Positions 20,258 to 42,850 of a stretch of DNA of 64,000 nt are shown here, one piece after another (position 1 is the stretch's first letter; every line of letters begins with the position of its first letter). The DNA is taken from contig JAHYIZ010000005.1 of NCBI GenBank assembly GCA_019429405.1, positions 1 to 64,000 on the forward strand. The letters run 5' to 3'. Under the pieces are notes generated by a model. That model was not told the origin of the DNA, searched no databases, and saw only the letters and a program-made list of their open reading frames with translations. This DNA comes from Paracoccaceae bacterium. GTDB lineage: Bacteria > Pseudomonadota > Alphaproteobacteria > Rhodobacterales > Rhodobacteraceae. Both the position numbers and the translations under genes were made by a program.

Positions 20258-20310
20258 CCCGGCAGCGGGACACCCCTCCCCAACGGGGGGCATTTATCTG
20301 GAAGGATACC
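20258..20310 (+). promoter_or_regulatory. candidate serC leader RNA (two hairpins before serC)
   Basis: Two small stems precede serC: CCCG(58-61)/CGGG(66-69) within 20258-20269, and 20276-20281/20285-20290 (CTCCCC with loop AAC and GGGGGG, one G-U pair). The second stem is followed by CATTTATCTGGAAGGATACC and the serC start, so it could hide or expose the ribosome-binding site. A serC leader motif is described upstream of alphaproteobacterial serC-serA operons; this matches in position and general form, but I cannot run the covariance model. Confidence 0.45.
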
Positions 20311-21459
20311 ATGTCTGATCTGCAGACCCCGGCTGCGCGCCCGGCAAACCCGCGCTTTTCCTCTGGCCCCTGTGCTAAAATCCCCGGCTTCACGCTGGAA
20401 ATGCTGGCCGACGCCCCCTTGGGCCGGTCGCACCGCGCCGCCGTGGGTAAGGCCAAGCTGAAAGAGGCGATTGACCTGACCCGCGAAGTGCTGCGGGTGC
20501 CCGAGGGCTACCGCATCGGCATCGTGCCGGGGTCGGATACCGGTGCTGTGGAAATGGCGCTCTGGTCGCTCTTGGGCGCGCGCCCGGTCGAAATGCTGGC
20601 CTGGGAAAGCTTTGGCGAGGGCTGGGTGACGGATGTCGTCAAGCAGTTGAAGCTGAACGCCACGGTGCGCAAGGCACCCTATGGCGAGATCGTCGATCTG
20701 GCGCAGGTCGATTTCAACGCCGACGTGGTGTTTACCTGGAACGGCACCACCTCAGGCGTGCGGTTGCCGAACGGCGACGCGATTCCTGCAGACCGGCAGG
20801 GCCTGACGATCTGCGATGCCACCAGTGCGGCCTTTGCGATGGATTTGCCGTGGCCAAAGCTCGATGTGGTGACGTATTCCTGGCAAAAGGCTTTGGGCGG
20901 CGAAGGTGCGCATGGGGTGCTGATCCTCAGCCCCCGCGCCGTGGAAAGGCTGGAAAGCTACACGCCCACATGGCCCCTGCCCAAGATCTTTCGCATGACC
21001 AAGGGCGGCAAGCTGATCGAGGGCATCTTCGTGGGCGAAACCATCAACACCCCCTCGATGCTGGCGGTTGAAGACTACCTTGTGGCGCTGAAATGGGCGA
21101 AAGCCATCGGCGGGTTGCCGGCGCTGATCGCGCGGGCCAATGCCAATGCCCGCGCCATTGCCGATTTCATCGCGGGCAAGGACTGGGTCGCCAATCTGGC
21201 GGTTGATCCGGCCACCGCCTCGACCACCAGCGTGTGCCTGAAGTTCACCGATCCGCGCATTGCCGATGGCGCCGCCTTCGCCAAGGCGGTCGCAAAGCGG
21301 CTTGAGAAAGAGGGTGTCGCGCTGGATGCGGGCGCTTACCGCGATGCCCCCCCCGGCCTGCGCATCTGGTGTGGCTCGACTGTGGAAACCGCTGATGTCG
21401 CGGCGCTGATGCCCTGGGTCGAATGGGCGTTTGCCGCCGAAATCGCCGCGCAGGCCTGA
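20311..21459 (+). CDS. serC: phosphoserine aminotransferase
   Basis: PLP enzyme converting 3-phosphohydroxypyruvate plus glutamate to phosphoserine; second step of serine synthesis. The protein has 382 residues of the alphaproteobacterial-type SerC. Segments seen are [13 protein letters not shown] at the N-terminus, [35 protein letters not shown], and the PLP lysine in [21 protein letters not shown] lies 6 nt before ATG 20311. It is followed by serA after 62 nt and is preceded by a possible leader RNA. Confidence 0.96.
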
Positions 21460-42611: not shown

Positions 42612-42617
42612 AAACTT

Positions 42618-42646
42618 TTGACAAACACAAAATCTGTGTCAGCCTA
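42618..42646 (+). promoter_or_regulatory. candidate promoter of the small 42.65-kb transcript
   Basis: TTGACA at 42618-42623 is a perfect -35 hexamer. A 17-nt spacer leads to AGCCTA (42641-42646), a weak -10 match, as is common in this group. The spacer carries an inverted repeat, ACACA-AAATC-TGTGT, that could be an operator. It lies directly after the yhhQ-like stop and before a small ORF with an extended ribosome-binding site. Confidence 0.45.
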
Positions 42647-42682
42647 CGGGTATCGGTAACACGAGCGAAAGGAGGTGGTCCA

Positions 42683-42739
42683 GTGTCGAGAGTGATATTG
42701 GAGAGAGGTGTCGGGACAGTCAGGGGGGAGCTTGCCTGA
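42683..42739 (+). CDS. 18-codon small ORF with extended Shine-Dalgarno, function unknown
   Basis: GTG at 42683 opens an 18-residue peptide, VSRVILERGVGTVRGELA (initiator read as Met), ending in TGA 42737-42739. The upstream AAAGGAGGTG (42668-42677) is fully complementary to the 16S rRNA tail, stronger than any other site in the window. The peptide is basic and has no membrane segment. The ORF end overlaps the RNA stem region (42717-42725), so ribosome passage would disrupt it. It could be a leader peptide, a small protein, or a coincidental ORF in a structured RNA. Confidence 0.5.
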   Translation: MSRVILERGVGTVRGELA

Positions 42740-42820
42740 GGGCAGACCCAAGGGTGACAAGCCCTGACTGGGACCAGTCGGTGACGACCCCCTAACTGGC
42801 CCATCTCCGTAGATCTCGAG

Positions 42821-42845
42821 GGCCGCCCGGCAACGGGCGGCCTTT
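42821..42845 (+). terminator. rho-independent terminator with GCAA tetraloop
   Basis: GGCCGCCCG (42821-42829) and CGGGCGGCC (42834-42842) form a perfect 9-bp stem closed by the GNRA loop GCAA, followed by TTT. It ends the small transcript and separates it from arfB, whose start lies about 100 nt further on. Confidence 0.85.
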
Positions 42846-42850
42846 CGATT

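Follow-up and report, generated by a model that had tools for sequence, protein, structure and literature searches.

The window analysed here is a stretch of DNA of 64,000 nt. At 42612–42850 it holds a self-contained transcription unit with an open reading frame (ORF) of only 18 codons. A sequence-only reading had proposed a dual-function small RNA or a translation-coupled switch. Its positions for TTGACA, the Shine-Dalgarno sequence (SD), GTG 42683, the 18 codons and the GCAA-loop terminator were all correct when the letters were re-read. The features of the locus were as follows.

42612–42850, plus strand: the locus in the 64,000-nt window, with TTGACA, SD, GTG, 18 codons, TGA and GCAA-loop terminator all inside 230 bases
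42618–42623, plus strand: −35 element TTGACA, letters re-read
42640–42645, plus strand: probable, weak −10 element CAGCCT (putative assignment; 16-nt spacer)
42667–42681, plus strand: extended SD GAAAGGAGGTGGTCC, complementary to the 16S rRNA 3' tail with one G–U pair
42668–42677, plus strand: SD 10-mer AAAGGAGGTG, followed by a 5-nt gap and GTG 42683
42683–42739, plus strand: ORF of 18 codons with GTG start and TGA stop (42737–42739)
42686–42691, plus strand: 5' arm of helix P1, TCGAGA, in codons 2–4, from the swap test and two-sided pair changes
42717–42725, plus strand: 5' arm of helix P2, CAGTCAGGG, in codons 12–15, from the swap test
42762–42770, plus strand: 3' arm of P2, CCCTGACTG, exact reverse complement of 42717–42725, from the swap test
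42795–42808, plus strand: internal SD complement ACTGGCCCATCTCC, pairing with 42671–42684 (SD and first start-codon bases)
42814–42819, plus strand: 3' arm of P1, TCTCGA, adjoining the terminator, from the swap test and pair counts
42821–42846, plus strand: intrinsic terminator, 9-bp stem 42821–42829/42834–42842, GCAA loop and short U-run

The RNA should be about 190 nt long, its ends being inferred. A 197-nt RNA had a predicted fold of −93.1 kcal/mol against −75.3 kcal/mol (sd 4.2) for shuffled sequences (z −4.2), and none of 200 shuffles was as low. Of 65 family loci, 42 carry TTGAC 48–53 nt 5' of the SD, and the terminator stem was recovered in the family alignment. Simple scanners called neither the promoter nor the terminator at the locus, because the −10 element and the U-run match their consensus weakly. 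The 14-base SD motif AAAGGAGGTGRTCC had a single mismatch-free occurrence genome-wide. The SD 10-mer occurred exactly once within the window; with one mismatch allowed, three matches were obtained against 2.1 expected, which is about chance.

Family and distribution of the RNA

No family known to the sequence-only reading had matched the locus, a statement that fails against Rfam. In a permissive search, 42659–42843 aligned end to end with RF01867 (CC2171) at 32.6 bits (E 2.8e-5). The 5' core of that family, CGAAAGGAGGUGrUCCAGUGUC, and its long-range helix closing before the terminator were both present in the window RNA and its homologues, whereas most of the inner sequence was unalignable. 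The gathering score of RF01867 is 75 bits. It was not reached by the window RNA, which is therefore termed a homologue of RF01867 and not a member. As judged from this alignment, the window RNA is a distant homologue of CC2171, a Caulobacter sRNA. The Rfam entry is named as an sRNA and gives no ORF. CC2171 has also been identified as MH_s33 of Mesorhizobium huakuii, with a sequence of 215 nt (PMC5596092), and it stands in the table of improved structures of the Rfam 15 paper (PMC11701678). In the portions of text that a literature search on the CC2171 sRNA and related terms returned, no description of the ORF or of its conservation was found.

The RF01867 model gave matches in 129 of the 149 genomes of the window's family, none of them over the cut-off, so that the cut-off hides most relatives. 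Class-wide, 56 of 240 genomes were matched, seven of them over the cut-off. The Rfam control matched Caulobacter vibrioides over the cut-off and Deinobacterium chartae below it; because the latter is unrelated, single weak covariance-model matches may be chance. More than one such match was obtained in several genomes (five in the family set, six in the class set). In one of them (G048), one of the two matches was of MSHC type and the other, at a different place, carried the exact motif (L028 and L089), and this genome possibly holds a second copy. BLAST with the segment matched 30 of 61 relatives, some over short pieces only. Matches to RNaseP-T and suhB overlapped the terminator, scored below their own cut-offs and were disregarded.

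The strict motif AAAGGAGGTGRTCCNDTG was present in 71 of 337 genomes of the class, at most once per genome. In a phylum-wide sample, the strict SD-plus-start motif was found in 75 of 348 genomes and its reversed control in none; counted from the listing, the positives were 75 of 137 alphaproteobacterial genomes against 0 of 211 other Pseudomonadota genomes. The class-level figures are lower bounds because the motif is strict. In a named genome collection, at least 119 stretches carried it. Among the matches listed, the titles were alphaproteobacterial, save three metagenome-assembled genomes titled only 'Proteobacteria bacterium', and included Rhodobacteraceae, Rhizobiales/Hyphomicrobiales, Sphingomonadales, Caulobacterales and Rhodospirillales. 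By these searches, the tiny gene is widespread in Alphaproteobacteria. Conservation outside close relatives was thus present, and the SD, start, stop, terminator and first stem pointed out in the sequence-only reading all recurred in relatives.

The searches select for the SD core, so retrieval partly selects for the 16S complement. The pattern used for the named collection includes the start codon and TC, whose conservation in those loci (L112–L230) is by construction; ORF length and stop were not built into it. Duplicate rows were removed from the locus set. Neighbouring rows are related by descent, a few genomes occur in two sets, and 224 of 227 rows are distinct by 120 nt.

The ORF and its peptide

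The ORF had exactly 18 codons in 64 of the 65 distinct family-group loci. Codon 19 was TGA in 33 loci, TAG in 23, TAA in 8 and AGG in 1; TGG was absent, although G was common at both variable positions. AGG belonged to the sole shorter ORF in the group, of 12 codons (L022, genome G033). A locus of the window's family with a 26-codon ORF (L029) was grouped with other orders by peptide type, and the strict same-family count is 64 of 66. An ORF of 14–35 codons was present in 219 of the 224 distinct homologues, compared with 77 and 79 when the same DNA was read in the two other frames; two of the five exceptions run off the locus end. In the shuffle control, 222 of 225 rows were in range against a mean of 75 and a maximum of 93 over 200 shuffles. 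The length was specific to the clade: 18 codons in Rhodobacterales and most Sphingomonadales rows, 14 in Bradyrhizobium and mostly 20–26 elsewhere. The largest outlier, a 59-codon ORF after the SD motif in Azospirillum sp. B21 (L192), may be another gene with a chance motif match.

Conservation of this kind could mean that the locus is a small mRNA for a functional micropeptide, with its own structure controlling translation and the peptide as the product that matters. The family shares the recurring peptide MSRxxLExGVGT, and the other peptides are order-specific. The synonymous fraction was 0.36 in the family group and 0.37 in the larger Rhodobacterales set, against 0.29 by chance in each; this slight excess leaves room for a functional peptide. 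However, the nearest-neighbour differences in the family group were spread evenly over the codon positions (149/141/151). The synonymous fraction was at or below chance in Sphingomonadales (0.14 vs 0.26) and in the 25-codon group (0.25 vs 0.25). It was 0.12 vs 0.23 in one further group, and 0.33 vs 0.15 and 0.17 vs 0.15 in two very small groups. Peptides of different orders had little in common past the first two or three residues, whereas the RNA frame was common to them, and the constant peptide positions coincided with invariant RNA motifs. Consistent purifying selection on the peptide was not found across the groups compared. The micropeptide explanation is considered unlikely.

As far as codon comparison can tell, the frame, stop and length of the ORF are under selection and the amino acids mostly are not. 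These results suggest that translation itself, rather than the peptide, may be what matters. Rfam lists the RNA as a Caulobacter sRNA with a narrow scoring range, yet it proves to occur across the class, its ORF being under selection and its peptide not consistently so.

Two features lie around the stop. In most family loci it is followed directly (window 42740–42752) by a motif resembling GGCAGCCC or GGCAACCC whose flanks are complementary, possibly a small hairpin at the place where ribosomes are expected to terminate. In the 12-codon locus, the stop precedes the same GGCAG motif.

Covarying helices and the SD

P1 joins codons 3–5 with the bases before the terminator, and its arms change in step across clades. 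The arm pairs included CATTGTC/GACAATG, CATTGCC/GGCAATG, CATCGTT/GACGATG, CATGGTT/GACCATG, GTGAG/CTCAC, GAAAG/CTTTC and GAGAA/TTCTC, with TCGAGA/TCTCGA in the window. In the swap test (n = 162), own arms gave 13.78, cross-clade swaps 11.00 (maximum 11.39 of 100) and within-clade swaps 13.28 (maximum 13.63). This test left out 14 of 176 rows, which were incomplete, too short or had no terminator found. In the family alignment, two-sided changes occurred in all five counted pairs of P1. Counted jointly, P1 and the SD helix had 91% of their cells paired, against 49–57% with the partner slid by 1–3 columns, and 42 cells were changed on both sides, against 13.9 in shuffles. At two outer positions of P1, pairing failed in 19 and 27 of the 62 loci, respectively; in many such loci, including the window, the arms pair in a shifted register. 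For P2, the swap test (n = 64) gave 18.36 with own arms and 14.33 with swapped arms (maximum 15.46 of 200). By these tests, both P1 and P2 covary.

With RNAalifold on the MAFFT family alignment, the helix at the SD, a hairpin at the start codon and the terminator were predicted, and P1 and P2 were not. For the mixed-order set, the prediction contained just a 3-bp hairpin besides the terminator. Since MAFFT misaligns the P2 arms, swap tests and counts of named pairs were used. The family alignment left out L022, L024 and L070 of 65 loci, and the mixed-order alignment left out L081, L100, L101, L103 and L107 of 31. The predicted start-codon hairpin consists of mostly invariant pairs; in the window, ATTGGA (42697–42702) complements TCCAGT (42679–42684) around the start codon.

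The sequence-only reading had described P2 as a stem that competes with two others. The exact complementarity of 42717–42725 to 42762–42770 was borne out, and this is the stem that also covaries in relatives. The proposed rival, 42717–42727 with 42788–42798, does pair at 10 of 11 positions, and the minimum-energy fold of the window nonetheless uses it, but it did not covary as a rival stem: own arms had a mean of 12.29 and swaps 11.89, with 20 of 200 swaps reaching the own value (n = 62). The second competitor, hairpin 42766–42779, was present only in four same-genus loci (L001–L004) of the 62, and its competition with P2 was not supported. The match claimed for the SD region is real, GGACCA (42771–42776) being complementary to TGGTCC (42676–42681). 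P1 and the SD partner at 42795–42808 had been missed. The competition that recurs in relatives appears to be a different one, between the 16S 3' tail and an internal SD complement, and the evidence for it, set out below, is suggestive.

Of 31 genomes, two family members contained the 16S 3' end GGCTGGATCACCTCCTTTC, in each case as the end of full-length SSU rRNA; no match was obtained in the window's own assembly. The SD core is the reverse complement of GGCTGGATCACCTCCTTTC; in the window RNA the complementarity extends over nearly all of the 16S tail, at a spacing suited to initiation at the 18-codon ORF. The 16S-tail complement was near-invariant in all homologues compared, for which retrieval partly selects. 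At the one freely variable SD base, 63 of 65 family loci and 31 of 31 others have A or G, both of which pair with U of 16S. SD variation is, on this count, as expected from 16S pairing.

In the window, the complementarity of the SD to ACTGGCCCATCTCC had a z of −3.1, with 1 of 100 shuffles equally good. Across 62 family loci, the corresponding helix had 97.5% of its cells paired, with changes on the partner side only. Such one-sided variation is what constraint of the SD by 16S would produce. The SD complement of several CC2171-like relatives lies within the ORF (CTGGATCGTCGCCTCC and the like) and resembles the 16S end; its position was not conserved between orders. Over 96 homologues, the mean z was −1.59. 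For 40 of them, at most 5 of 100 shuffles did as well; masking was uneven, 11 of 96 being worse than half of their own shuffles. Predicted SD unpairedness was 0.217 against 0.329 with shuffled bodies and was lower in 100 of 162. These predictions make internal SD masking suggestive, not proven. A known parallel is the icaR mRNA of Staphylococcus aureus, in which a motif in the 3' part masks the SD of its own transcript and so keeps ribosomes from loading (PMC3868564). Cover of the SD by a segment of the same RNA is likewise proposed here. However, icaR is a long protein-coding mRNA with a long 3'UTR, whereas the window RNA has about 190 nt, and its SD cover lies in the 3' half and, in other orders, within the ORF, unlike that in the icaR 3'UTR.

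Ribosome loading as a proposed switch, and other readings

The preferred reading, held tentatively and at somewhat less than even confidence, is a free-standing RNA switch set by 30S loading or ribosome traffic, with the peptide as a by-product or secondary. The peptide drifts although the ORF retains its length and stop, and codons of the ORF also serve as helix arms; the fold would therefore be set by ribosome traffic. With few 30S subunits available, the internal mimic of the 16S tail would cover the SD and start, giving a closed state. In the open state, a 30S subunit, or ribosomes on the ORF, would unfold P1 and P2, and the C-rich 3' half would be bared until termination. Loading and termination at a fixed place could then determine how stable the RNA is or whether other mRNAs gain access to its 3' half. 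A narrower form, possible but doubtful, is a sensor of free 30S in which the 16S tail competes with the internal mimic and translation of an ORF of fixed length and free sequence sets the RNA state. If translation is the signal, the locus would offer a clear and testable example of an independent RNA that senses ribosome availability. The first proposal of a dual-function sRNA or translation-coupled switch thus remains the best fit, as the ORF is conserved and the helices covary; the stem competition named with it does not stand.

RNAIII/delta-hemolysin is a dual-function sRNA with a very short ORF and strong structure. Like it and rnTrpL/peTrpL, the window RNA is a single, strongly structured RNA that has a very short ORF and may act in trans; the comparative data on the ORF favour its translation. 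The peptide of the window RNA is not consistently conserved, which is a difference from dual-function sRNAs. In rnTrpL, a short ORF and trans action are combined in one RNA (PMC10117765). rnTrpL is the product of an attenuator, whereas the window RNA is not tied to a gene.

The strong SD may instead mark a 30S-binding stabiliser against 5' decay, or a subunit decoy, in which the ORF only tunes release. The near-invariant 16S-tail complement would fit this function, and RNase J is known from Alphaproteobacteria. The STAB-SD of cry3A mRNA is a strong near-5' SD that binds the 16S 3' end of the 30S subunit without initiation and blocks RNase J1 (PMC4113751). The window RNA likewise has a strong SD matching the 16S 3' end near its 5' end, as placed from the promoter. 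However, STAB-SD directs no initiation, whereas a start, a stop and an ORF of fixed length are kept here, and the conserved ORF speaks for initiation at this SD. The covariation of P1 and P2 would not be needed in a simple stabiliser. This explanation is considered quite improbable.

A conventional non-coding sRNA, with SD and ORF untranslated and the 5' or C-rich regions pairing with target mRNAs, would agree with the entry of CC2171 in Rfam as an sRNA and with the covarying structure. Ribosome profiling in Caulobacter described intergenic ncRNA regions in general as untranslated and two formerly predicted ncRNAs as translated, none being named in the text available (PMC4117421). The former statement favours a non-coding RNA and counts against the switch. 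In S. meliloti, one third of 54 newly found translated sORFs were on annotated sRNAs (PMC10117765). Stop codons that are exchanged without TGG and a narrow window of ORF length are unexpected in an untranslated RNA, and this explanation is very unlikely.

In the window's family, a queuosine-precursor transporter gene (Vut_1; TIGR00697) lay upstream in 62 of 65 family-group loci. That the RNA acts as transcription attenuator or leader for arfB, the ribosome-rescue gene downstream, was rejected on synteny and is extremely unlikely. Of the 61 family loci with enough sequence, 49 have ArfB (NF006718) no more than 800 nt downstream in the same orientation, with the terminator in between, but ArfB is missing in the other 12, and outside Rhodobacterales the neighbours differ while RNA, ORF and terminator persist. 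A downstream gene conserved throughout, as an attenuator or leader would need, was thus not found across the family and the orders compared. Since the neighbours change outside Rhodobacterales, the RNA is an independent gene and not a leader. Those shared neighbours that could be clustered were specific to one order; an example is an FtsJ-type methyltransferase, present at 8 Sphingomonadales loci. Elsewhere in the window, the serC leader RNA RF00517 was found at 20263–20314 on the plus strand (67.4 bits), the sole window match at Rfam's own thresholds.
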